Shown here: positions 1 through 20,667 of the stretch, one piece after another
Numbering within the stretch: the first letter of the stretch is position 1
Layout of the letters: each line of letters starts with the position of its first letter
NCBI GenBank assembly: GCA_029242745.1
Contig: JAQWTI010000005.1
Span: forward strand, 62,001 to 126,000
Reading direction: 5' to 3'
Length of the DNA stretch: 64,000 bases
DNA from: Acidimicrobiales bacterium
GTDB lineage: Bacteria; Actinomycetota; Acidimicrobiia; Acidimicrobiales; MedAcidi-G1
The notes under the pieces: generated by a model
Seen by the model: the letters and a program-made list of their open reading frames with translations, nothing else
Databases searched by the model: none
What the model was told of the DNA's origin: nothing
Translations under genes and position numbers: made by a program

Positions 1-539
1 CCAAATGTTTCAAGGTGCAGGAAAGGGAAATGGGCAAGATCTAGGAAGTTGTCGGCCATCTGGGCGGCACCTGCATTCCACTCCCAAGGTTCAAGTGGGC
101 AATTCACAAAATTCGGGTCATTGTGCTCCGGAACCTCTGGAAGCCCGACAAGTGGTGGCTCAGGGGCCAGCCAGACCAAGCCCAGGTGGTCTTGGATGTC
201 AACAGCCATCTGGCAGTTCGCCCGAGGTGGAATTGGAAGAGAGGGTGACTGTGCTGGGATCCGCACGCACGTGCCATCCATCGCATAGCGGTAACCGTGA
301 TAGCCGCACTGAAGAGTTCCATCAACGACAGATCCTGCGCTAAGAGAAGCCAATCGGTGTGGACACGTATCTGGAAAAGCAGCCAGTTCACCATTGATGC
401 GAACCACGCACCAGAACTCACCTAGGAGTTCCACCTGCAGCGGAACCCCCTCCTTCGCCTCCTCTGATCTAGCAACTGGATGCCAGCAATTTCGCAAGGC
501 TGGGTGCTCGTTATCGAGCCATACCGTTTCTTTCTCCAT
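1..539 (-). CDS. Rieske non-heme iron oxygenase, alpha subunit (C-terminus beyond window)
   Basis: The gene starts at the ATG ending at 539 and runs off the window start, so only 179 residues are visible. A Rieske [2Fe-2S] motif is clear: C59-P-H61, then 16 residues, then C78-G-Y-H81. The start of the catalytic domain carries the mononuclear iron motif NFLDLAHFPFLH, with D167, H170 and H175 as expected ligands. This arrangement is typical of VanA-like (O-demethylase or N-demethylase) one-component oxygenases that need a separate reductase. It is the last visible gene of the minus-strand methylated-amine block, which would fit oxidative demethylation, but the substrate cannot be read from half a protein. 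The family call is firm; the role is inference. Confidence 0.9.
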   Translation of the reverse strand, partial: MEKETVWLDNEHPALRNCWHPVARSEEAKEGVPLQVELLGEFWCVVRINGELAAFPDTCPHRLASLSAGSVVDGTLQCGYHGYRYAMDGTCVRIPAQSPSLPIPPRANCQMAVDIQDHLGLVWLAPEPPLVGLPEVPEHNDPNFVNCPLEPWEWNAGAAQMADNFLDLAHFPFLHLETF

Positions 540-728: not shown

Positions 729-1187
729 TCATTCTGATTCCGAGGCTCGTGTAACTTCAACCAATAGATCTGATTCCAGAGCGTCAAGCATCACTCCAAT
801 TTCAGACAAGTAAGTCTCCGAATCAGACTGCTCCGCTACCCGCTCATCCAGTACATGAATAACTGGCAATCCAAGAGACACTCCAGCCAGCGGACCTGCA
901 TAACTGGGGTCTCCATTTGTAACCGTTTGAGTCACGATCTCTGTACTGTCACGATCGGGCGTGCCCAAAACAACGACGACATTATCCTCACCATTTTCTT
1001 GAACGGTCTCAAGAATCTTTGTTTGATCATCCAGATCAACAGCTCCAGCAGACGTTCAAACAAAGCACTGGGTAAAGGACACCACTTCTCGTGCACCCGC
1101 CGATCTGGCTATCGCTGCAATGGCCGGCCCAGGAATACCGTCACGCTCACCTATAGCAATAATGCACTTTCCACTCAACTCTGTCAT
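729..1187 (-). CDS. grdA: selenoprotein A of a glycine/sarcosine/betaine-reductase-like complex (UGA = Sec44)
   Basis: Full length is 152 residues, matching the usual 150-160 of GrdA. Reading through the in-frame UGA at 1058-1056 (codon 44) gives CFVUTSAGAVDLD, the hallmark GrdA motif with C41 and U44. The N-terminus (IGERDGIPGPAI) and the C-terminal stretch TVTNGDPSYAGPL also match the family. In clostridia GrdA is the small redox selenoprotein that takes the carboxymethyl group from component B as a selenoether and hands it to component C. The ATG lies just after the grdC stop and is preceded by AGAAGGG. Without Sec readthrough only an 79-residue fragment (729-968) is predicted. No thioredoxin pair, its usual reductant, is adjacent. 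Confidence 0.93.
1023..1039 (-). promoter_or_regulatory. candidate bacterial SECIS hairpin in grdA
   Basis: Downstream of the UGA at 1058-1056, the mRNA has a perfect six-base-pair stem (UUGAUC / GAUCAA) closing the five-base loop UGGAU. The loop begins 22 nt after the UGA and has G at its second position. These features fit the published bacterial SECIS rules (apical loop roughly 16-37 nt after UGA, a G in the first two loop bases). The structure is read directly; SelB binding is inferred. Confidence 0.75.
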
Positions 1188-1188
1188 G

Positions 1189-2646
1189 TCAACCCTTCTG
1201 ACCTTTGTTTGTTTTGGCATTTCGAGTCAGGACAAACGACATCCCATCAGACATCTCCGTCATTCGCCCCAAAAACAGGCTTCCCTTGGCATAAAACATT
1301 GTGTGATTCGCGTTGCCACTAGTCAGGCTGCGATATGCATGCCCAAGAAAAGGAATAGCTGATGCGATGTGTCCTTGCGTCGGCGAAAATCCAGGCATCC
1401 CATAGCGGTCTACAAAATCAGACATTTCGTCTCTAGTAATTTCTTTCCGCTGAACAGCAAGGCTCGCGAGCACCCGGTAATTGGTACGTGGAGTATTTCC
1501 ACTTCCTTGTGGTTCGGTGATATCAGGGTCATGGAGTTCGGTTGCATAGCGATCAACATCCAAAATTCCCAAACCCTTTCTGATCAGAGGTTCGACAATT
1601 AATGCTTCGGCAATGGCCTGGGGTGACGAGCCGGCTGCAACTGTGTGACGACCGATCGACTCAAGATCAATTATTGGGCTAAAGCCATCATCCTCTCCGA
1701 TGAGAACCGCGACTGAGGCTAGAACGTCTTCGAGAATGGGCATGTTATTTCGCAAATGCCCTTGGAACTTCATTCCTAATTTGGCCAGTGATCCTCCACC
1801 AATGACCGCAACGTTCTTATAGAGACCGCTAGTAACTAGTGCTGCCCCTACGACTATCGCGTGATTTGGTGCACAACAGAAAGCTTTGATATCTGAACCT
1901 GTGGCGTTTAAACATCCAGAGTTTTCAGCCACCGCTTTCGCAAGATTTCCTCCACCCCGCTGGTATCGGTCTCCAATAGCCTCTTCACCACATCCAATCA
2001 CATAACCAATTTCGTTACCGCTGTCACCATCGTTATTGAGTAAACGTAAAGCGATTACCGCAGAAGACTTCGAGGTCAAGTTCTCCAGCACTATCTCTGC
2101 ACTCAAACTTGAGTCCTCACTATGACCATTTTCTACACATCCAATGAATTCATGTCCCTGATATAGGGGCAGTGCGCCCCGACATTCAACTAGGTCTTTC
2201 AGGGTCTGCTGCGGAGTTCCATCACCCAGCAATTCCAAATCATTCTCGTTAAACCACTTGGCTCTGGAGAGTGCATCTCGATGGCGGTCTATGTATCGCG
2301 AATCGAGTCGAAGAAGGTTGAAGGGATCTATCGCTGCCGTGAGACAGAGGAACAAACCCTCTTCGACAATCTCACCATCGGGACCAACTGAACTAGAATC
2401 CTCGAAGGATCGACGATACCAAGGCCTCTCAACGCCAGCCAAATCCTCAGGAGTATGGTTTCCGATAAATACCTGGTGAGGGGGATACTTGATTGCGTCT
2501 TCAAACGAGCGTGCAGAATTTAAAATATCATCAAGAATCGTAGAATTGGACGTAATTTCACGTTGCGGTTTGGAACCATGTCTAATTAAGTTTGGAACGT
2601 GCGATAAGCAAAGTTTTACTGACTTAATACAGGGAAATTGTTCCAC
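1189..2646 (-). CDS. grdC: glycine/sarcosine/betaine reductase component C subunit GrdC-like
   Basis: The product is 485 residues with a GTG start; the codon two upstream is a stop, so no longer frame exists. The N-terminus (LCLSHVPNLIRHG, then HQVFIGNHTPEDL) and the thiolase-like stretch IKAFCCAPNHAIVVGAALV followed by NVAVIGGGSLAKLGMKFQGH are characteristic of GrdC. In clostridia GrdC and GrdD form component C, which releases the two-carbon unit from selenoprotein A as acetyl phosphate. No GrdD is found here, so the acceptor may differ, for example CoA given the thiolase-like fold; that is speculation. It sits between grdB and grdA, with a 34-base gap after grdB and a stop one base before the grdA start. 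Confidence 0.9.
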   Translation of the reverse strand: MEQFPCIKSVKLCLSHVPNLIRHGSKPQREITSNSTILDDILNSARSFEDAIKYPPHQVFIGNHTPEDLAGVERPWYRRSFEDSSSVGPDGEIVEEGLFLCLTAAIDPFNLLRLDSRYIDRHRDALSRAKWFNENDLELLGDGTPQQTLKDLVECRGALPLYQGHEFIGCVENGHSEDSSLSAEIVLENLTSKSSAVIALRLLNNDGDSGNEIGYVIGCGEEAIGDRYQRGGGNLAKAVAENSGCLNATGSDIKAFCCAPNHAIVVGAALVTSGLYKNVAVIGGGSLAKLGMKFQGHLRNNMPILEDVLASVAVLIGEDDGFSPIIDLESIGRHTVAAGSSPQAIAEALIVEPLIRKGLGILDVDRYATELHDPDITEPQGSGNTPRTNYRVLASLAVQRKEITRDEMSDFVDRYGMPGFSPTQGHIASAIPFLGHAYRSLTSGNANHTMFYAKGSLFLGRMTEMSDGMSFVLTRNAKTNKGQKG

Positions 2647-2680
2647 AACTTATACCAACACCTTCCTACTTAACTCTCAT

Positions 2681-3994
2681 TTATTGGGTTGGTCCGTCTA
2701 AAGTGAAGATGGTCGGGCCGGACACAGATATACCCAAACAATTCACCGCCAACTCAAACAACTTGGCTCGGTATGTCGCCTCTTCAGCGGGAGGAAGTTC
2801 TGGTGCTCCAGTTGGATGAGTGACAGCGGCACCCTCCACTATTCGATTTACTCCAAGAGACTCAGCCAACGAAGGTATTGCAGTCACCAAGACCGCCGGA
2901 ATCCCAGCCTTGTCAAACTGATTCACAAGCGTAGACCCGCTACGCGTTCCTGTTCCTCAAGTAGAGGTTGCTATTACCGCATGCACCCCTGCGTTATGCA
3001 GTTCAGCAGCGATCTCATCCCCAATCCTTCGCATTGCAGGCATCGAACCCTGATTACCAGTGGTTGAGTAGACGTATTCATGCAAGGAGAACCCACCTTT
3101 GGGTTCTTGTTTTCTCGCCATGTCTAAGGGAACCATCCAATTCGGGTTCTCATTGGAAGCACTCGTATCTATGCCACCGTGAATAACTTCGAATTCTTCT
3201 GACATTAAACTGGCCACACGCTCCACTGAATAACGGAACCACCTATCCGCTCGACCTGAGTTCAACCGGTCCGGGTTCCCAGACGGAACCAAGCCGCCCT
3301 CTGTCACCAGGGCAAGAACAGGTTCGGTATTAGTGGCTTCGAGCGCACTCGGCTGCACTATGTCGTAATCAGGGAGTGGCCACTCGGTTAAACACGGATG
3401 GCCCTCGATTTTCGACAGCAAAAGGTCTATTGCTCGCTTTGACCCACGGTCCGGAGAAACTTCGTTCAGACGGATACCTCTAGAAAGCAATAGCGAGGAA
3501 GCAGCAGACCAGCCTCCATCAGATCCTAGATACGAACTAGCACCAGCAGCCAAGTCTTCTAACGCTTGCCCCATCCCGCCAGTTGAATCTGAGGTACGGA
3601 GAATTGGGATCTCCGCTCTATGGAGTTCGACTGCAGGATTGTTCTCCGACATTGCCATGAGTGCTGGAAGACCCAGACGGTCTATCGCGACAGAACAAAC
3701 TTCGCCACAGGCCATTCCATACCGGCCTGCGTTAAAGGCGGGTCCAGCAATAAGAAGGTCAGCATCCAGAGCACGCAGAAGGCCTTCAACTACTTCCGCA
3801 GAAGTCGAGGAATTCATGCTGAAGTAGTTATCACCCGCGAAAATAGTTCCCACCACCTGGCCCGCCTCCCCAAGCAACTCATTTAAACGAATACCTGGCC
3901 CCACAGGGCCTTCTCGGAACTCTGGAGGATGACCAGCAGCCTCTTCCCCCCCGAGACCAACAAAAAATTGGTTTAGATAGTGGACAATCTTCAT
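2681..3994 (-). CDS. grdB: selenoprotein B of a glycine/sarcosine/betaine-reductase-like complex (UGA = Sec346)
   Basis: Reading through the UGA at 2959-2957 (codon 346) gives 437 residues, the normal GrdB length; stopping there would give 345 residues and orphan the rest. The Sec context is TSTUGTGTRSGSTLV, the expected GrdB/GrdF/GrdH active-site pattern. Other family landmarks are MKIVHYLNQFFVGLGGEEAA at the N-terminus and AGPAFNAGRYGMACG around residue 84. Component B binds the substrate amine and, with the GrdE-type partner just upstream, makes the Sec-carboxymethyl intermediate passed to GrdA. The sequence alone does not tell glycine, sarcosine or betaine specificity. AGGGGGC precedes the ATG as a ribosome binding site. 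Confidence 0.93.
2929..2945 (-). promoter_or_regulatory. candidate bacterial SECIS hairpin in grdB
   Basis: After the UGA at 2959-2957 the transcript forms a perfect six-base-pair stem (GCGUAG / CUACGC) with the loop CGGGU. The loop begins 17 nt after the UGA and its second base is G, inside the known bacterial SECIS limits. Its sequence differs from the grdA hairpin, as expected for coding-region SECIS elements. SelB recognition is inferred. Confidence 0.75.
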
Positions 3995-4073: not shown

Positions 4074-5387
4074 CTAATGAGACCTTGCAGTAACGTTCGT
4101 GAACCCGAACTGGTTGGTAGAACCGAGAAGACCACTTAACGGATAGGAGAATGGTCCGCTGGGACTCGACTCAGCGTTAAGCAACGAAGTGCCTCCTATG
4201 ACAGCATCAACTTGGGGGAAACTAAAACTCTCCTCATAGTTCCCTGTACTAATAATCAAGTCAGCTTCTCTAACAAAGTGGACAAACCCAGAATCTGACG
4301 GATTTGGGGCCATCTCCATCGATAAGACGGTGGTCGGGATCCCCGACTGTTCCAACTTTTGACAGATCATCATGGTGTCGACACAAGGATGTCCACCACC
4401 TGCGTAGTTGATGATCGCACCATCAGGCTTAAGGAGCTGCGCCAGCGTCGTGGCGTGCCCAGTTAATCGCTCCTTACTTTCTCGGGTATCGCCGTTCGTG
4501 AATAGCACGACCCCAAGGAATTCCAGATCCTTCCCGCTCCGAGCGTAAAGGTCATGAATGATGGGATGGTTCTGGACCACGTAGGTAAGTTCCCGCATGC
4601 AGGCAATCGCGTTCCACCCACAAACGAGAGCACCATCGAGAATCTCGTTCGGATGAACCATCGTTGGCAGATGGGCTGGCCCTCCAATAGCCCCTCCACC
4701 AGGCTCAATCTCACCATAGATATAGGGAATTGATAACTGATAGAGGTAGACCACACCCGGTAAATCAGGGTTCGGACTGGTGGGCAGATCAAACGTAGCC
4801 ACCTCGTTAGGCTCAGATCCCGCAGCGGCCGATGCCATATAAACACTGGCTTTTAGTCCCGCTGCCCGTATAGCTCGATTAAGAGAAACCGCCTCAGGAG
4901 TACCTTCAAACACATTCAGTGGTGGCCGGGTGTCGTCGCGTAGATATTTCGCTGGCTTTACATCCACAACTAGGTTCGCAAGATCAGAAAATGGACTGAA
5001 CCCACTGCACGAATCAGTCATGTCAAAAAAGGCTTCACGCCAGTACGTAGATTCACCCGGCACGGGCTCTGCCACCTCAACTACGGCAGCACCTCGCAAA
5101 ACAGCAGTCCGCCCCTTGCCGACAGTCTGCGGAGTCGAGAGAAAACCTGGGAAATCAGCATTACCACCACCCAGGCGACAACGAGGTTCCACGGCATCCA
5201 CCACGTTGATGACACGAAGGCTGTCCCCGGGATGAGCCACATGGAGCGTCACATCTTCAAAGTGATCATCTTCGAGCAAATGTGCTCGAAGTTCATCATG
5301 ATTAATTACTAGTGAACTTCCGTCTAAATATGTTTTATTTCCGAACGTGATCTTGGAGATATCGTAATATGCAAGTTCAAGCGGCAT
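4074..5387 (-). CDS. grdE: GrdE/GrdG/GrdI-type substrate subunit of component B
   Basis: The product is 437 residues, similar to clostridial GrdE proproteins. The N-terminus (LELAYYDISKITFG), the early motif RVINVVDAVEPRC and the C-terminal half (DGALVCGWNAIACMRELTYV around residues 251-270, then NHPIIHDLY) follow the family pattern. In clostridia this proprotein is cleaved at an internal cysteine to give a pyruvoyl group that forms a Schiff base with the amine substrate. Around that site the present protein has C256 and C263, but as I recall the family's Asn-Cys pair, it is offset here, so processing is uncertain. It lies upstream of grdB with a 79-base gap. A GAGG-containing site precedes the ATG. 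Confidence 0.85.
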   Translation of the reverse strand: MPLELAYYDISKITFGNKTYLDGSSLVINHDELRAHLLEDDHFEDVTLHVAHPGDSLRVINVVDAVEPRCRLGGGNADFPGFLSTPQTVGKGRTAVLRGAAVVEVAEPVPGESTYWREAFFDMTDSCSGFSPFSDLANLVVDVKPAKYLRDDTRPPLNVFEGTPEAVSLNRAIRAAGLKASVYMASAAAGSEPNEVATFDLPTSPNPDLPGVVYLYQLSIPYIYGEIEPGGGAIGGPAHLPTMVHPNEILDGALVCGWNAIACMRELTYVVQNHPIIHDLYARSGKDLEFLGVVLFTNGDTRESKERLTGHATTLAQLLKPDGAIINYAGGGHPCVDTMMICQKLEQSGIPTTVLSMEMAPNPSDSGFVHFVREADLIISTGNYEESFSFPQVDAVIGGTSLLNAESSPSGPFSYPLSGLLGSTNQFGFTNVTARSH

Positions 5388-5430: not shown

Positions 5431-6405
5431 TTAACTACCTATATTCACTGGATTCAGTCCAAGAATCTCGCGCGCTTGCTTTGGTGTAGCTACTTCCCTG
5501 TTCATGTCTTCTGCGATCCGCTTTATACGAGAGACCATCTCAGCGTTACCGCTCGCTTTCTGCCCTTTCTTGAAGTACAGATTGTCTTCAAGTCCAACTC
5601 GTACATGTCCTCCTAATACGAGGCCCATCACATTCATTGGCATCTGGTACACACCGGTACCAATTACCGAAAACATCGCTCCATTAGGGAGCTCGCTGAC
5701 CAAGGACATCAGACTTGCTGGAGTGGGATAAGCCGCCATACCAACTCCCAACACAAACTGAACCATGAACCGCTCTTTTACATGCCCATTATCAATCAGA
5801 TCCCGAAGCACCCAATATTGGCCCGAGTTGTAGACCTCAAACTCAATGTTGAACCCACGTTCTTTCATCACAGAGGCGTAGTGATTCAGTTCGCCATATG
5901 TAGTTGAATCACAGGTGTCAAACTCCAGTTGTCCACGTGGATGTGGAATGTCATCGGGCCGTTCAGCCATGACGAACTTCGACATCGCCGGACCAAGATT
6001 CAATGTCACGACGTCCGCAGCCGGGACAGCGTCAAGTGGGCAATAACGTTCTTCTGTAGTCAGAGTTGGCCCACCGCCTGTGCTGTTATTGATAACGACA
6101 TCTGGACAAGCTTCTCGCACAAGCTCGTTGATCTTTCCGTATACCTCAGGGTTGCCGGTGCACTGACTCCAATCTTCAGGGTCGCGCCCATGGATATGAA
6201 TCTGGCTTGCACCAGCTTCATAGGCCTTGAAAGCTTCTTCCGCTATTTGCTCTGGTGTTTCAGGGACAGCAATATTTGCCTCTTTCCCGTGAAAACCGCC
6301 ATTAACGGCAGCGGTAATAATGGCTGGCGGAAGTTGAGAGCGACCTACTTTTTCCATCCAGACGTAAGGATCTCGATAGTCCCACTCAGTCTCATATGTC
6401 GTCAT
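5431..6405 (-). CDS. beta-keto acid cleavage enzyme (BKACE, DUF849 family)
   Basis: The protein is 324 residues when begun at MTTYETEW; a longer GTG start at 6417 is rejected because that GTG is part of the GGTGGAG ribosome binding site. BKACE enzymes are zinc-dependent and condense a beta-keto acid with acetyl-CoA, releasing acetoacetyl-CoA and a new acid or CoA ester. The zinc motif HIHGR near residue 76 and the distal GGHVRVGLEDN motif are present. Family members include 3-keto-5-aminohexanoate and dehydrocarnitine cleavage enzymes; the latter gives glycine betaine, which would connect well with the Grd-like genes downstream. That link is inference. The start overlaps the end of the preceding amidohydrolase by 14 bases. 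Confidence 0.88.
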   Translation of the reverse strand: MTTYETEWDYRDPYVWMEKVGRSQLPPAIITAAVNGGFHGKEANIAVPETPEQIAEEAFKAYEAGASQIHIHGRDPEDWSQCTGNPEVYGKINELVREACPDVVINNSTGGGPTLTTEERYCPLDAVPAADVVTLNLGPAMSKFVMAERPDDIPHPRGQLEFDTCDSTTYGELNHYASVMKERGFNIEFEVYNSGQYWVLRDLIDNGHVKERFMVQFVLGVGMAAYPTPASLMSLVSELPNGAMFSVIGTGVYQMPMNVMGLVLGGHVRVGLEDNLYFKKGQKASGNAEMVSRIKRIAEDMNREVATPKQAREILGLNPVNIGS

Positions 6406-7306
6406 TTCTATCTCCACCTGTAGATACCAACTTGAACAGTTGGCATGCGGTTTTACCCATTATGTTTTCGTATACATCTTCACTAATGAGAGGCGCCTCG
6501 TCGGACGCCAGTGAAATGGCATTTGCAGCCTGGTACATGTCCTTGCAATCTGTGTTATCTGAACCGAACATGACTTTGTTCAGACATTCATATGACTTCA
6601 ATTTCTTTAAAGCCTTGTAGGCCTCACCTACCGGATCATGCGGAGCCATACCGTAAGGGCCCCATCCGGAGAGTTCGGTATAAAAGTTTGGGTGCTTGGC
6701 TATCACTGCTATTGCTTCATCGACCCACGGATGGCCTAGGTGCGCTACTACAACCTTCAGATCAGGGAAATCCCGGCCTAAACGGTCTAGGTAAACAGGC
6801 CTCTGATGCTCCATTGTTGTATTAGTTGTCCGAGTCCAACCTAGATGGATCTGAACAGGTATATCAAAAGATAAACACTTTTCATAAAACGGATCTAAAC
6901 GGCGATCATCCGGACGGTAGTGGTGATATGTGGGTAAAAGTTTTAATACTTTAAAATCATATTTTTCAACACACCGATCTATTTCATCTAAGCTTGCATA
7001 CACATCAACGAGGGGATCTATGCCAATTACTCCAAATAAACGATCCGGAAACATTGCACATTGGCGGGCCGTGTAGTCGTTTGGGACGTACATGTTTCTG
7101 TCATCTAAATAATCAGGGTGGTAGGTGTTGCGCCGTATATCGCCTCCCTGAATCAGACCAATGTCAATATTCGTTTCATCTAGAAATTGCACAATCTCGA
7201 CACCACCGACCGAAGTCGGTTCAAAACCAAACTGTTCCCACCACCACCACGCCGGCGTATGTTCATCAATTAGGCCAAGGTGAAGGTGGCAATCAACTGT
7301 CGTCAT
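6392..7306 (-). CDS. amidohydrolase family protein (amidohydrolase_2 type), paralogue with intact metal motifs
   Basis: The product is 304 residues from the ATG at 7306. A longer frame to 7501 only overlaps the neighbouring gene and its extra residues look non-coding. Metal-ligand motifs of the COG2159-type fold are seen: CHLHLG at the N-terminus, VQIHLGW mid-protein, VVAHLGHPW and MFGSDN near the end. Such enzymes act as decarboxylases or hydrolases on small cyclic or carboxylated compounds; the substrate here is unknown. It is a close paralogue of the gene at 7329-8237, separated by 22 bases, and precedes the BKACE gene. Confidence 0.85.
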   Translation of the reverse strand: MTTVDCHLHLGLIDEHTPAWWWWEQFGFEPTSVGGVEIVQFLDETNIDIGLIQGGDIRRNTYHPDYLDDRNMYVPNDYTARQCAMFPDRLFGVIGIDPLVDVYASLDEIDRCVEKYDFKVLKLLPTYHHYRPDDRRLDPFYEKCLSFDIPVQIHLGWTRTTNTTMEHQRPVYLDRLGRDFPDLKVVVAHLGHPWVDEAIAVIAKHPNFYTELSGWGPYGMAPHDPVGEAYKALKKLKSYECLNKVMFGSDNTDCKDMYQAANAISLASDEAPLISEDVYENIMGKTACQLFKLVSTGGDRNDDI

Positions 7307-7328
7307 CTTCACTAATCTCGAACCTGAT

Positions 7329-8237
7329 TTATGAGATTTTGTACAACTTAGAAGCAGTACCACCAAGAATTGCGTCAAGTTCGTCTTGGCTAAACGGTTC
7401 TCCTCCACGCTCTTCGGCAACCTTGTTGAGCCCGTAGTAGAGATCAGAAACTTTGCCCACAGTGCCAAATTCCCGAGCCTTGTCGGCATTGTCAGTTCCA
7501 AAGATCACTCTGTCAAGAGCACCATAATTACGGAATTTGGATAGTACGTCATACAACTGACCGCTATCACCACCAGCGAAGTAGCACATATCAGCATGGA
7601 AGTTGGGGTGCTTTGACACCAATGCGATGCACTGGTCTATCCACGGGTAGTTCACAAACACAATGACCTTAAGGTCTCTGTGCCTACGTCCGACTGAATC
7701 AAGAAGCACCGGATCCCCGTACTCGAGCATTGCAGTACGAGTCGGGGTCATACCCGTAAAAAAGTGCACCGGGACATCGAGTTCTTGTGCCTTACGGTAC
7801 AGCGGGTCAAGGTCTCGATCGCCTGGGGAGAAATGGAGATAACTCGGAAGCAACTTCATCGACCTGAAGTCAAGTTCGGTAACACAGCGCTCCAACTCGA
7901 TAACGCTCCCTGGAAGGTCGCGAAATGGGTCAATGCATGCCACTCCGTACAGCCGACCCTTGTGGAGTTCGCATTGTTCGGCTGTCCAGTCATTTGGAAT
8001 GTAGATCAAACCAGCAGACTCTTCGGGATAGTCAGGGTGAAAAGTAGTCCGTCGGATATCACCGCCTTGGACTAAACCAGCATCCATTTCATTTGCATCA
8101 AGCAAGTCGACAATCGCTTGACCGTCAGTAGAAGCCCAGTCTTCAACACCGTACATTCCGTACAACTCTTCCATCCACCATACAGGGACTTGACTTCCGA
8201 CCATTCCTAGATGTAGGTGGCAATCAATTTTAATCAT
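7329..8237 (-). CDS. amidohydrolase family protein (amidohydrolase_2 type), diverged paralogue
   Basis: This 302-residue protein is collinear with the 6392-7306 product: both start with CHLHLG, share GGDIRR with H-P-D-Y, and end with a GSDN/GTDN motif. Two positions that carry histidine in the sister protein are changed: the HLGW segment reads FFTGM, and AHLGHPW reads VFVNYPW. D in GTDN and the N-terminal HLH remain. Either the metal is held differently or this copy is a non-catalytic partner of its sister. It lies between the GcvT-like gene and the sister gene, in the same direction. Family membership is clear; activity is not. Confidence 0.8.
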   Translation of the reverse strand: MIKIDCHLHLGMVGSQVPVWWMEELYGMYGVEDWASTDGQAIVDLLDANEMDAGLVQGGDIRRTTFHPDYPEESAGLIYIPNDWTAEQCELHKGRLYGVACIDPFRDLPGSVIELERCVTELDFRSMKLLPSYLHFSPGDRDLDPLYRKAQELDVPVHFFTGMTPTRTAMLEYGDPVLLDSVGRRHRDLKVIVFVNYPWIDQCIALVSKHPNFHADMCYFAGGDSGQLYDVLSKFRNYGALDRVIFGTDNADKAREFGTVGKVSDLYYGLNKVAEERGGEPFSQDELDAILGGTASKLYKIS

Positions 8238-8302: not shown

Positions 8303-9511
8303 TTATGTCCTTAGATGTCTACGGAAAGGAAGTTCCGTGAGGTGACCCTCCAGTTCGTACTCACAATCGCCCGATAGCCAAACCAGCAACACCTCGTTTC
8401 CTTCAACAGCAGCTGAGGAATCAACGTGCGCTAACCCAACAATTGTTTTCAGGGTGTACGCCCAAGTAAGACTTGTTACGTAACCAACTGCTTCAGACTC
8501 TTTATTCAACTGATAAATATTTCTGCTTACCTTCGGCAACGCCGGTCCAAATTCAATTTCCATCAGATTACGAACAGAATCGTCAGTTAGTTCAAGTCCA
8601 ATCAAGCGATCTGGTGGTCCGCCAGCAGCCTCTTCCTCGATTAGGGCTTGCCTGCCAACAAATTTTTCTTTAGAAAAATCGACAAACCGACCAAGGTTCA
8701 ATTCGCCAGGTGAACACTCCTGCCGATTGTCAGGGTAGGAATCAACCCCATGCCAGATCCCTGCCCCCTTGTAGTCGGATCCGATAATTAGCAATCCAGC
8801 TTCGACTCGCGCTACGTCGATGGCATACTCGCCCGCTGGAATCAGATCGAAGGGGGCCCCGGACTCAAAAAGGGCATCCCAAACATTTTCGGCGACCTCC
8901 GGAGCTACCCATAGTTCGTATCCGAGCTCACCAGTGAAGCCCTGGCGTATTACACGAACTTCAGATCCACCTATCTCGCAAACTCTGCTTCTCGAAAATC
9001 TGAGGTCCGCAAGAGACCCTCCAGTGGCGCTTTCAAGGAGATCTCGCGACTTCGGACCCTGTAGCGCCAAGATCCCAAAGGTGCCCGTTATGTCAACGAC
9101 ATCAACCTCGAGGTCGTTACTAAACAATCTGAACCAGTCCTCATTGGGCCCTGCTACCAAAATAAAGGAGCTCTCTTGGTCTCGCAATATCAGGCCATCA
9201 CCGACCACTTTCCCCGCTTGGTTGCACCAAGGAGTGTAGATAATCTGTCCAATTTCTTGGCCAGAAACATCACGAGTGACCACATCGTTAATCAACTGCA
9301 ATGCATCAGGCCCGTAAATATGCAACTTCCAGAGCGGCGACATTTCATTAACCGTTGCACTTTCACGCATAGCAGCCAATTCTTTGCGCGGATCCGTATA
9401 AACGTCGACAACAAAATAATCACCCCACCGGTACCACTCACCCGTGGAAGTGGCAGCTTCCGTTCGCGAATGGAACGGAGTTCCCATGACTCGAGTCGCT
9501 GGATTACTCAT
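8303..9511 (-). CDS. GcvT-like aminomethyltransferase (folate-dependent demethylase family)
   Basis: The product is 402 residues, with the T-protein fold: N-terminal WKLHIYGPDALQLINDVVTRD, the central FGILALQGPKSRDLL, and RQGFTGELGYELWV. The family moves a one-carbon unit from a methylated amine to tetrahydrofolate, as in glycine cleavage, dimethylglycine/sarcosine demethylation and DMSP demethylation. No glycine cleavage H or P protein is nearby, so a stand-alone demethylase role is more likely than glycine cleavage. Its ATG overlaps the stop of the ABC ATPase gene (ATGA at 9508-9511), which suggests translational coupling between uptake and the first catabolic step. Substrate is inferred only from context. 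Confidence 0.82.
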   Translation of the reverse strand: MSNPATRVMGTPFHSRTEAATSTGEWYRWGDYFVVDVYTDPRKELAAMRESATVNEMSPLWKLHIYGPDALQLINDVVTRDVSGQEIGQIIYTPWCNQAGKVVGDGLILRDQESSFILVAGPNEDWFRLFSNDLEVDVVDITGTFGILALQGPKSRDLLESATGGSLADLRFSRSRVCEIGGSEVRVIRQGFTGELGYELWVAPEVAENVWDALFESGAPFDLIPAGEYAIDVARVEAGLLIIGSDYKGAGIWHGVDSYPDNRQECSPGELNLGRFVDFSKEKFVGRQALIEEEAAGGPPDRLIGLELTDDSVRNLMEIEFGPALPKVSRNIYQLNKESEAVGYVTSLTWAYTLKTIVGLAHVDSSAAVEGNEVLLVWLSGDCEYELEGHLTELPFRRHLRT

Positions 9512-13869: not shown

Positions 13870-13926
13870 CACCAATAATATTTATTAATAAACCTGTTAC
13901 TCAACTAAGTAAAGGTGGCTCACACC

Positions 13927-15150
13927 ATGGATTTATCTAACGAATCCGATGCCATTAAGCCAGTTGCAGACCCCGCTACCGATTATGACCTCCTTGATAA
14001 GTCATACGTGGAGAACCCACTGCCAATCTGGGACGACCTTCGCCAACGTTGCCCTATAGCCCACACAGAGCGGTGGGGAGGCTCATGGATGCCTACTCGT
14101 TACAAGGACGTCCAAGCGCTGGCTAGGAAAGTTCCAATTCTCTCTTCCCTTTCCAACATGGCGTTTGATCTCCCTGAAGGGCTGAATTCTGACCTACTCA
14201 CCGGTCCCAAAGCGGGCGCTCCTATCAGTGCAGACCCTCCTGAACAGACTTGGACGCGGCAAGCGCTGCTTCCCCACTTCACGCGCACAGCCGTTGAAAC
14301 ACAGCGATCCTTTACGGAGGGAGTGTGCGAAAATCTCATTGACTCATTTATCGAAGACGGGAGATGCGATGCCGCATCGCAGTATGCCGAACAGTTAACT
14401 CCACAAGTCCTCATACACATCCTTGGCCTAGACAAAGATGCTGGCGCCGAGCTAACCGGCTGGGTAAACAACCTTCTGGATGTCGGCCTCGAAGGCACCG
14501 AATGGACCAGGTACTGGCACTTGATTAGAAATTTTTTTGCCAAAGAGGTCCAGAACCGTCGGGCCTATCCGCGCAACGACTTCATTTCAGCGCTGAGCCA
14601 AGCCAAATTTGGTGAAGAACTATTCCCTGAGGAAATAGTCGTGGGAATGTGTGCTCTGCAACTAGTCGCCGGGATAGACACCACTTGGTCCGTTATCAGT
14701 TCTGCAATCTGGCATTTTGCTACCCACCAGATAGACCGACAAAGAATGGTGTCAGACCCATCACTATGGAATAGCGCCGTCGAGGAAATGTTGCGGTTCT
14801 ATTCCCCCGTAACCGCAGGTCGGAACGCTCTTGAAGAGACGGCTTATGCCGGCGTAATATTTCAACCTGGAGACAAGGTTCTGCTGAACTTCCCAGCCGC
14901 CAACCACGATCCAGAGATCTTCGAAGATCCCCACACGGTACGGCTCGACCGAGAAGATAACCGTCATATTGCCTTTGGTGTTGGAATCCACCGATGCACC
15001 GGGCTTCACCTCGCCCGGATGGAGATACAAGTTGCACTCAGGGCATGGTTCCATCGGATTCCAAACTTCACCATTGAAGACCCGGAAGCCGTCATCTGGG
15101 CTGGTGGAGGCACCCGAGGTCCACGATGCGTCCCTGTGCTATTCACTTGA
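13927..15150 (+). CDS. cytochrome P450
   Basis: The product is 407 residues from the ATG at 13927; an upstream GTG at 13915 belongs to the AAAGGTGG ribosome binding site. The I-helix oxygen-activation motif AGIDTTW, the K-helix EEMLR and the heme-binding FGVGIHRCTG with its cysteine ligand are all present. It is a soluble bacterial P450 with no membrane anchor; ferredoxin and reductase partners are not encoded nearby. Context with a Rieske oxygenase and GcvT-like protein would fit oxidative N-demethylation or hydroxylation of a small amine, but the substrate cannot be assigned. It follows the dehydrogenase gene by 57 bases and is probably cotranscribed. Confidence 0.95.
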   Translation: MDLSNESDAIKPVADPATDYDLLDKSYVENPLPIWDDLRQRCPIAHTERWGGSWMPTRYKDVQALARKVPILSSLSNMAFDLPEGLNSDLLTGPKAGAPISADPPEQTWTRQALLPHFTRTAVETQRSFTEGVCENLIDSFIEDGRCDAASQYAEQLTPQVLIHILGLDKDAGAELTGWVNNLLDVGLEGTEWTRYWHLIRNFFAKEVQNRRAYPRNDFISALSQAKFGEELFPEEIVVGMCALQLVAGIDTTWSVISSAIWHFATHQIDRQRMVSDPSLWNSAVEEMLRFYSPVTAGRNALEETAYAGVIFQPGDKVLLNFPAANHDPEIFEDPHTVRLDREDNRHIAFGVGIHRCTGLHLARMEIQVALRAWFHRIPNFTIEDPEAVIWAGGGTRGPRCVPVLFT

Positions 15151-15973: not shown

Positions 15974-16058
15974 CTAAGAAAAACCAACTCCCGCCAACAA
16001 CGCAGTCGTGAAAGAGACCAAATGTGGGCTCCAGAGCGGTCGCAATAGGCTACGGCCC

Positions 16059-19345: not shown

Positions 19346-19741
19346 TCAGAAGTCACTGCGTTCTGCAAGGCCAGCCAGCAGGTCGTCCCACTCGTCAGAC
19401 CCAAACACCGGACGCAGATCAAATACATATCGCGTGTAGGCGTCTTCAACCTTGCATCGGCCCGTCATGAAGGCAACGTTGGCATTCAGATCCCCAGAGA
19501 ATTGGGCCACTGCATCAACGTACTTCCAGGTGACCGTAGCCTCAGCTTCTCCGTCCTTCCCAGAAATAACCTCAGCGATACGCCCATCTACTACCACTAG
19601 GCGAAACTGCACCTTGCCATGGGGTGTGCTCGTGACAACGAAACGCACCACACCATCCACACCTCTTCGCTTTGGTAGCACCGATCCACCATCTGCCAGT
19701 GCCGCAATCCACTCCGCAGATAGGAATGAGAAGTCGGCCAT
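19346..19741 (-). CDS. SCP2 sterol-carrier-domain protein
   Basis: The 131-residue protein has the single-domain SCP2 pattern: an N-terminal helix, VDGVVRFVVTSTPHGKVQFR, a GKDGEAEATVTWKYVDAVAQ strand-helix unit and LNANVAFMTGRCKVEDAYT. Such small proteins bind lipid or acyl ligands. Its ATG overlaps the mca stop (TAATG at 19743-19739), so the two are coupled. Function in relation to mycothiol metabolism is not obvious. Confidence 0.75.
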   Translation of the reverse strand: MADFSFLSAEWIAALADGGSVLPKRRGVDGVVRFVVTSTPHGKVQFRLVVVDGRIAEVISGKDGEAEATVTWKYVDAVAQFSGDLNANVAFMTGRCKVEDAYTRYVFDLRPVFGSDEWDDLLAGLAERSDF

Positions 19742-20667
19742 TAAGAAACCATCTCGGTCCGGATACCGGCAAAGAGGTCGTCCTCATGACCCTCAGCAGG
19801 CAGAACACTAGATGGATCCACCGAATAGCCGTCCACATAACAGGCTCCCAGACGGTAATCATCGAACGGATGCACGGTGCGGGCCACATCATCAGGCAGA
19901 CCAAACCAGAACTTTGATGCTGGATCGATTTGAGTGGCGTGAGCCAGCAGAGCCTCTCCGCGCACGTCCCAATGATCAGTGGTGGATACCTGCGTAGTGA
20001 TCAAGTGGTCCTTGGATGGGCGCTCGAACCACCACTCGTCGTAAGGGGAGTCCAAGTCCAGTTCGAGAAACTTTTCGTGCAGGCCAGCGATGCGGGCCCG
20101 TGACCACATTGTGTAGTACAGCTTCAACGGCTGCCAGACCGGACCCGCCTCCGGGTAACTGTCCGGGTCTCCGGCTGCGTGGAATGCCGGTACGGAGATG
20201 TCATGAACCTGAACGTGATCCGGGTGGTCGTACTCCCCTCGTGCGTCAGGATAGGTAACGATGACCTGCGGTCGAACTCGCCGGATAATCGCCACGAGAC
20301 GACCCACTGCCTCATGAGTATCAGCGTTAGCGAAAGCATCCGGCCGGGAGTTGTGATCTGAGTCCTTCATGCCCGAGTCTCTATAGCCCAGCATGACCAC
20401 CTCGTCGTAGCCAATGATCTCAGCGGCCTTAGCCAACTCGGCTCGTCGAACTGCTGAGAGATCAGAGAGGACCTCAGGAACGTCCATAACAGGGTTCAGA
20501 ACATCACCTGCCTCCCCTCCGGTGCAACACACCAGAACACAATGCACACCCTCGGCATGCAGGGCAGCCACCGTGGCGGCCCCCTTTGATGCTTCGTCAT
20601 CAGGATGGGCATGCACGGTCAGTAGTCGCAGCGGTGCGGCGGCAGAAACAGGATTGAAGTTATACAC
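19741..20667 (-). CDS. mca: mycothiol S-conjugate amidase Mca
   Basis: The 308-residue protein is a PIG-L/LmbE-fold zinc amidase: HAHPDDEASKGAA supplies the first zinc motif and YDHPDHVQVHD the second. Length and the C-terminal region match Mca rather than the shorter or differently ending MshB deacetylase. Mca cleaves mycothiol conjugates during detoxification, giving a mercapturic acid for export. Its presence implies mycothiol as the low-molecular-weight thiol and supports an actinobacterial source. It is the first gene of a two-gene operon with the SCP2 protein. Confidence 0.85.
   Translation of the reverse strand: MYNFNPVSAAAPLRLLTVHAHPDDEASKGAATVAALHAEGVHCVLVCCTGGEAGDVLNPVMDVPEVLSDLSAVRRAELAKAAEIIGYDEVVMLGYRDSGMKDSDHNSRPDAFANADTHEAVGRLVAIIRRVRPQVIVTYPDARGEYDHPDHVQVHDISVPAFHAAGDPDSYPEAGPVWQPLKLYYTMWSRARIAGLHEKFLELDLDSPYDEWWFERPSKDHLITTQVSTTDHWDVRGEALLAHATQIDPASKFWFGLPDDVARTVHPFDDYRLGACYVDGYSVDPSSVLPAEGHEDDLFAGIRTEMVS

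Follow-up and report, generated by a model that had tools for sequence, protein, structure and literature searches.

A predicted selenoprotein reductase of the glycine/betaine kind in Acidimicrobiales genomes that encode a terminal oxidase

We analysed a stretch of 64,000 nucleotides (the window) from an Acidimicrobiales bacterium of the MedAcidi-G1 lineage (GenBank assembly GCA_029242745.1, contig JAQWTI010000005.1, positions 62,001 to 126,000). Near the start of the window are four genes predicted to encode a reductase complex of the Grd type, and two of them, grdA and grdB, contain an in-frame UGA codon that is predicted to encode selenocysteine (Sec). Each UGA is followed by a hairpin resembling a bacterial selenocysteine insertion sequence (bSECIS). 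Coordinates are those of the window, and the Grd genes and their operon are on the minus strand unless stated.

729..1187, minus strand: grdA, selenoprotein A, 152 amino acids; UGA at codon 44 (Sec44, 1058-1056), motif CFVUTSAGAVDL
1023..1039, minus strand: candidate bSECIS hairpin of grdA, 6 base pairs, 5-nucleotide loop with G second (TTGATC-TGGAT-GATCAA); loop 22 nucleotides after the UGA
1189..2646, minus strand: grdC, component C beta, 485 amino acids, no Sec; NF040746 597.7 bits (cut-off 450)
2681..3994, minus strand: grdB, selenoprotein B, 437 amino acids; UGA at codon 346 (Sec346, 2959-2957), motif TSTUGTGTRSG
2929..2945, minus strand: predicted bSECIS hairpin of grdB, 6 base pairs, 5-nucleotide loop (GCGTAG-CGGGT-CTACGC); loop 17 nucleotides after the UGA
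4074..5387, minus strand: grdE-like gene, component B alpha, 437 amino acids; PF09338 314.2 bits (cut-off 22.2); CGWNAIAC, without the GNC pyruvoyl site

Two genes with conserved in-frame UGA codons

Read through the UGA, GrdA matches PF04723 at 161.7 bits (cut-off 22) and NF040748 at 162.3 bits (cut-off 130), and GrdB matches PF07355 at 356.3 bits and TIGR01918 at 383.8 bits (cut-off 65.45). Positions, lengths and family matches all agree with the first-pass annotation of this DNA, which had placed Sec44 and Sec346 in the motifs given above. It had also predicted that ordinary gene calling would truncate the proteins, and under translation table 11 GrdB does end at 345 amino acids.

The UGA codons are conserved well beyond this genome. 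We surveyed 397 genomes of the order, drawn from a larger group, and identified GrdA in 22 of them (8 families, 14 genera, 71-98% complete); one TGA lies inside the GrdA match in all 22. Among 20 loci fetched from the order's other families as stretches of 3-20 kb each, the GrdB site is TGA in all 17 that are readable there, and the other three have no readable site. A stop codon occupies the Sec column in 32/32 aligned GrdB rows (the alignments comprise 32 GrdB, 31 GrdE and 31 GrdC rows, with one genome region, L056 and L115, entered twice). The codon found in homologues had been proposed as a check on the reading, and every homologue examined has TGA at the site. When the window is compared with two sister genomes (L044 and L050, the latter being contig PBOU01000033.1), the proportion of nonsynonymous differences (pN) is 0.05-0.20 and that of synonymous differences (pS) 0.60-0.81, upstream as well as downstream of the UGA. 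In the same comparisons pS falls to 0.17-0.43 in the 15 codons after the UGA, versus 0.65-0.75 beyond.

The hairpins have the sequence, stems and loop distances described in the first-pass annotation, but they are not rare in themselves. By a simple score, equally good hairpins occur at 303 of 1719 codon positions for GrdA, and at 100 of 1719 for GrdB, in five operon genes. Hairpins of this quality are so common that the argument from them is weak alone, and hairpin strength by itself was rejected as proof of a bSECIS element. Both sisters share the GrdA stem, but in other families the GrdA genes do not have it at this position. The GrdB hairpin keeps a constant register with covariation over 20 sequences: 93.6% of cells are paired, compared with a mean of 79.7% in shuffles and 25-52% in slid registers, and 15 cells are changed on both sides, compared with 4.0 and 0-3, respectively. 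Of its seven pairs, three are invariant and three have two-sided changes, and the innermost pairs form in only 12/20 sequences. Two of the five measures did not rise above the shuffles, namely the number of pairs with two-sided change (3 versus 2.4) and of further pair types (4 versus 4.4). An Rfam scan of the window gave no hits.

Judged from the sequences, what exceeds chance is the conserved TGA, the selection on both sides of it and the covariation of the GrdB stem, and this comparative evidence strongly supports grdA and grdB as genuine selenocysteine genes. The UGAs could instead be sequencing errors, signs of decay, or stops read as another residue, and Grd genes do lie in pieces at two loci of other families, although at none in this genus. 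Such an origin is extremely improbable given the TGA in 22/22 GrdA genomes and in all GrdB rows read, over many assemblies, the selection downstream of the UGA, and the full Sec machinery described below. Cys forms are also on record: under the Pfam family of GrdB, a marine Global Ocean Sampling survey counts 75 homologues with Cys and 5 with Sec, and it lists one Sec GrdA (PMC2398784).

Selenocysteine decoding machinery

The presence of Sec machinery in the genome had been put forward as a further check, and selA, selB, tRNA-Sec and selD are all found. The selA (401.8 bits, cut-off 267.9) and selB (279.1 bits, cut-off 242.25) genes are neighbours on one contig (C46). The tRNA-Sec gene (67.5 bits, cut-off 47), which ARAGORN also calls as tRNA-SeC, lies ~12 kb from them on the same contig. 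On another contig (C11), selD scores 343.6 bits and has its own in-frame TGA in a GUGCK motif. Across the order, SelA matches at E<=0.001 occur in 247 of the 397 genomes (233 over the cut-off); of the 22 GrdA genomes, 21 have such a match (Fisher p 0.0003, kinship uncorrected).

The window genome (G000) may encode additional selenoproteins. Two short PrdB-like proteins with in-frame UGA, at G000:C27:120147 (L047, motif PVUPLC) and G000:C44:51175 (L048, motif PVUPVC), are probably further selenoproteins, judging by these motifs. Matches to PF07355 occur in 45/48 genomes of the family, and among the places listed all but two are short. Genes for YqeB (280.9 bits, cut-off 220) and YqeC (132.4 bits, cut-off 73) are found in the adjoining stretch before the window (L011:1455-3012, G000:C24), ~19 kb before the window start. 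These are marks of the selenium-dependent molybdenum hydroxylase trait, and the same genome has a terminal oxidase.

A Grd complex without several of its usual features

Together, grdA, grdB, grdE and grdC are predicted to encode a reductase of the glycine/sarcosine/betaine/fluoroacetate kind, and family and motif comparisons support the view that it is not a standard glycine reductase. GrdA, GrdB and GrdC exceed the curated cut-offs of broad complex models and the GrdE family is recognised; every substrate-specific model listed scored below its cut-off. In GrdC, C257 and H426 are kept in 31/31 rows, and residues 252-321, which span C257, match PF08545 (ketoacyl synthase III) at 23.4 bits, just under the cut-off of 24.

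In the known enzyme, GrdD completes the formation of acetyl phosphate. None of the order's 22 GrdA genomes has a GrdD match over the cut-off, and the window genome reaches 23.6 bits against a cut-off of 350. The weak matches in 20/22 of these genomes are short and below 34 bits, occur likewise in 7/14 control genomes, and are probably PlsX. In a separate search of 8 genomes, GrdD occurs only in a Tissierellia genome (G049, 517 bits), and a GrdD query against 43 stretches matched only the Enterococcus gilvus, Photobacterium, Acetoanaerobium and Tissierellia loci. Acetate kinase was not found in 16/22 GrdA genomes, including the window genome and its sister. Since the genomes are incomplete, an absence in one of them is weak evidence, and it is the pattern over 22 that carries the claim.

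GrdE has CGWNAIAC in all three operons of this genus, where glycine and sarcosine types have SGNC. The GNC is missing in 24/31 rows, including these three and one betaine-type GrdE; the 7 rows that keep it are from Bacillota glycine/sarcosine-type loci and Photobacterium, and none is from the order or from Chloroflexota/Myxococcota. The window GrdB (UGTGTRSG) has neither of the cysteines that usually follow Sec: the 32 rows comprise 8 with UxxCxxC, 15 with UxxGxxC, 3 with UxxGxxS (this genus) and 6 with UxxSxxS. Haem-copper oxidase subunit I (COX1) is encoded in 22/22 GrdA genomes.

The complex shares with the Bacillota glycine/sarcosine reductase (GrdA, GrdB/F, GrdE/G, GrdC and GrdD) the Sec-containing GrdA (CFVUT) and GrdB (STUGT), the GrdE and GrdC families and a hairpin in the same register, but differs in having no GrdD, no GNC and no UxxCxxC, no acetate kinase in the window genome, and a terminal oxidase. 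An ordinary glycine reductase, gaining ATP as Stickland fermenters do by reducing glycine to ammonia and acetyl phosphate, perhaps when oxygen runs out, would fit the matching Sec sites, and GrdA and GrdC do score above the curated cut-offs for the complex in general. We regard it as very unlikely, given the missing GrdD, acetate kinase and GNC cysteine, a glycine-specific model score (TIGR01917) of 363 bits against a cut-off of 602.2, and the failure to match the glycine GrdB motif as published in PMC9751293 (IHGG for AHGG, WMVP for RV[IL]P, and TTGNQGSM).

Parallels are also found in reductases acting on other substrates. The betaine reductase GrdH/GrdI of Enterococcus gilvus (L124) likewise has a GrdE without GNC, but possesses GrdD and keeps UGTCTRCG, and its GrdB scores 798.2 bits with the GrdH model (cut-off 775), versus 341.8 bits for the window GrdB. 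Both GrdI and the FarE subunit of the fluoroacetate reductase of Synergistota are reported to be without the pyruvoyl cysteines, and FarB to have lost CxxC (PMC10838667); the operon of the fluoroacetate reductase is a different one. This likeness, and a score of 136.5 bits for the window GrdE with the FarE model, could indicate a reductive detoxification or salvage device, e.g. one acting on haloacetates or on other acetates substituted at the alpha carbon, and not a growth pathway. Such a role is rather unlikely: the FarE model (NF053623) has a cut-off of 675 and is outscored by the sarcosine GrdG model (216.8 bits), and the surrounding genes look catabolic (a transporter, demethylases and a beta-keto acid cleavage enzyme).

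Searches of the PDB by sequence with GrdE, GrdB and GrdC gave no match. The AlphaFold model of GrdE has a predicted local distance difference test (pLDDT) score of 76.8, and Foldseek against the PDB returned nothing at E<=0.001. No relative was found in the viral contigs searched with GrdE.

Relatives across the order and beyond

GrdE, GrdB, GrdC and GrdA occur together in 15/20 loci of the order's other families. Three loci are partial: one has no GrdE in the contig (L103) and two end early (L096 and L109). At two others (L106 and L110) only GrdC and GrdA are present, with no GrdB or GrdE adjoining, so that component B is either encoded elsewhere or absent. A gene for a protein of 110-135 amino acids with the motif WG[PT]xCxxC lies between grdC and grdA in 10/20 of these loci; the one such gene that was scanned matches thioredoxin (PF00085) at 65.7 bits. 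By motif, a similar thioredoxin-like gene precedes grdE in the Tissierellia locus.

Relatives in named genomes were scanned with two peptide patterns only, so the resulting 9 loci are a sample. Clusters of SAR202/Dehalococcoidia and of one metagenome-assembled genome of Deltaproteobacteria/Myxococcota share with the window the Sec GrdA, the Sec GrdB, the missing GNC and, in the genomes searched, the absence of GrdD. They differ in having UGTSTRSG rather than UGTGTRSG and in forming a separate branch of the GrdB tree. In that tree this genus forms a long branch by itself (100/100), separate from the order's other families, from a Chloroflexota/Myxococcota group and from a Bacillota/Photobacterium group; the order's sequences are joined at 97/92, a grouping subject to a long-branch warning. 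For GrdC, the sequences of the order may or may not form one clade (approximately unbiased test, p-AU 0.234). A replicon of the gammaproteobacterium Photobacterium sp. DA100 (L126) carries a Grd set in which two Sec GrdA motifs accompany GrdB, GrdE, GrdC and GrdD. In the open literature we found no publication that deals with Grd in either Acidimicrobiia or SAR202, subscription papers being outside the scope of the search.

A catabolic gene block around the Grd genes

In the window genome the Grd genes are embedded in a longer block, and the following features of the block and its edge lie in the window.

1..539, minus strand: start of a VanA-type Rieske oxygenase gene that continues outside the window into L011
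5431..6417, minus strand: beta-keto acid cleavage enzyme (BKACE); PF05853 269.8 bits; 85 and 88% identity to the copies in the sister operons
6392..7501, minus strand: Amidohydro_2 family protein, probably with an internal true start; PF04909 128.4 bits
7329..8237, minus strand: Amidohydro_2 family protein; PF04909 91.8 bits; 90 and 91% identity to the sister copies
8303..9511, minus strand: GcvT-like protein, presumably a folate-dependent demethylase; PF01571 177.1 bits
9508..10365, minus strand: ATP-binding protein of an ATP-binding cassette (ABC) transporter; PF00005 128.6 bits
10549..12651, minus strand: substrate-binding protein, a Bmp and NMT1/THI5 fusion; PF02608 112.2 bits, PF09084 110 bits
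12913..13869, plus strand: divergent 3-hydroxyacyl-CoA-dehydrogenase-family (3HCDH) protein; PF02737 166.1 bits; adjoins the operon in both sisters
13915..15150, plus strand: cytochrome P450, which may or may not belong to the pathway; PF00067 77.9 bits

Three genomes hold the block: that of the window, UBA2974 (deposited as Candidatus Microthrix, a name indicating Acidimicrobiia) and the one represented by contig PBOU01000033. The 15 genes have one order in all three: substrate-binding protein, ATPase, GcvT-like protein, two amidohydrolases, BKACE, GrdE, GrdB, GrdC and GrdA, followed by the Rieske oxygenase, an ADA-like protein, a Rieske-less VanA-type protein, a Rieske-fused reductase and GST, with the 3HCDH-family gene diverging. 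A permease gene directly follows GST in the window genome and lies further on in UBA2974; the portion of PBOU01000033 that was fetched shows none. The record of PBOU01000033.1 is titled Planctomycetaceae and carries this actinobacterial block at ~66-90% identity, and is probably a mis-binned contig.

The adjoining stretch L011 contains, beyond the Rieske oxygenase, the ADA-like, NdmC/D/E-like and permease genes. The whole Rieske oxygenase gene is 77% identical over 339 amino acids to L044:14303-15337, which has Rieske and VanA_C domains. The NdmC/D/E-like trio (L011:15060-18398) has the Pfam architecture of a Rieske-less oxygenase, a reductase with a Rieske domain, and GST. It is likened by domain architecture to the NdmCDE 7-methylxanthine demethylase, for which a Rieske-less oxygenase, a reductase with an extra Rieske domain and an adjacent GST-like protein are described in PMC4408171. 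The G+C content is ~0.48-0.53 from about position 6000 of L011 to about position 16000 of the window, compared with 0.57-0.61 in the rest of the window. The whole block is inside this low-GC island, which suggests that it was acquired by transfer. None of the partner genes of this genus was found in the 20 loci of other families, within the 3-20 kb fetched, save generic ABC ATPases.

The oxygenase and GcvT families indicate that the block probably handles an N-methylated compound. One candidate is carnitine. The 3HCDH-family protein and BKACE might produce glycine betaine, from which the Grd complex, as a betaine reductase, would free trimethylamine, and the GcvT-like and Rieske proteins would demethylate the amine. 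The GrdE without a pyruvoyl site resembles the betaine type in this respect (PMC10838667), the 3HCDH protein weakly matches carnitine dehydrogenase (103.8 bits, cut-off 592), and the best NCBIfam model of the GcvT-like protein is trimethylamine N-oxide demethylase (193.7 bits, far below the cut-off of 1100). We consider this pathway unlikely, because the betaine GrdH model (NF040795) gives 341.8 bits against 775, the best model of the dehydrogenase is a vitamin B6 catabolism enzyme (183 bits, below the cut-off of 500), the transporter families do not point to betaines, and the ADA-like and amidohydrolase genes would be left unexplained.

Predicted function of the complex

We propose that the Grd complex catalyses the reductive cleavage of a compound X-CH2-COO- in an aerobe, as a selenoprotein step of a pathway in which acetyl is passed on via GrdC, probably to coenzyme A (CoA). 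On the evidence of the genes and their context we assign this reading a probability of about 0.72. GrdE and GrdB would bind the substrate, and the GrdB selenol would attack the alpha carbon and free X-H; a Schiff base is not expected, because GrdE has no pyruvoyl site. The carboxymethyl group would then move to Sec44 of GrdA and from there to GrdC, which, if it resembles the known enzyme, would hold it as an acetyl thioester, probably at C257. The acetyl group would most likely be transferred to CoA rather than to phosphate, since no GrdD was found and the window genome has no acetate kinase. In this genus the complex would form one step of the 15-gene catabolic block, linked to the uptake and demethylation of an N-methylated compound.

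Several observations weigh against this proposal. The CoA acceptor is inferred on chemical grounds, and the AlphaFold model of GrdC, with a pLDDT of 47.8, was too poor to use and gives no help with it. Acetate kinase is present in 6/22 GrdA genomes, and the absences noted above come from genomes that are only 71-98% complete. COX1 indicates a capacity for oxygen respiration and does not prove that the complex is active in the presence of oxygen. Reductive cleavage by Grd complexes depends on thioredoxin, and the operon of this genus showed no thioredoxin gene. Of the GrdA genomes, G236 (85% complete) gave no match to SelA, and G075 gave only a weak one (1.2e-8). Finally, the matches come in several pieces at L101 (G316; GrdE, GrdB and GrdC) and at L109 (G075; GrdC), and these copies are therefore broken or misassembled.

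Grd reductases are known from anaerobic fermentation, and the genomes described here contain a branch that extends over 8 families, every carrier of which has a terminal oxidase. According to a 2026 review, aerobes rarely retain selenoproteins because selenols oxidise (PMC13188914), and a 2016 survey counts 40.4% of Sec users as aerobic (PMC5029168). The first-pass annotation had considered it notable that Grd genes occur beside mycothiol and F420 genes. A Sec protein in an aerobe is, given that 40.4%, unsurprising alone; the complex itself is unusual, without GrdD, pyruvoyl cysteine or UxxCxxC. A branch that has no GrdD and is missing one or both of the cysteines reported to protect Sec opens two questions to direct experiment: the working of a Sec reductase in an aerobe, and the role of GrdC when GrdD is absent.

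More broadly, and only tentatively, aerobes of the Acidimicrobiia type and, separately, SAR202/Dehalococcoidia may run a GrdD-less selenium reductase in which GrdC hands acetyl to CoA; we hold this to be possible, though on balance doubtful. If it were true, reductive C-N cleavage would be an oxygen-compatible feeder of the tricarboxylic acid cycle rather than a fermentation, and in this genus it would complete an oxygenase-started breakdown of an N-methylated compound at a Sec site without the usual neighbouring cysteines. Because gene callers that end a reading frame at every UGA will truncate them, these proteins may be undercounted in surveys; one Sec GrdA is reported from the Sargasso Sea (PMC1088965) and one from Global Ocean Sampling (PMC2398784).

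Other genes in the window

The mycothiol context noted in the first-pass annotation is real: a gene for Mca is found at 19741-20667, just over the cut-off. The window also encodes luciferase-like proteins that may be F420-dependent. Between 36982 and 47990 are genes for an amidohydrolase, a luciferase-like protein, an M20 peptidase and a molybdenum-hydroxylase-type FAD subunit, which perhaps constitute a purine or heterocycle pathway.

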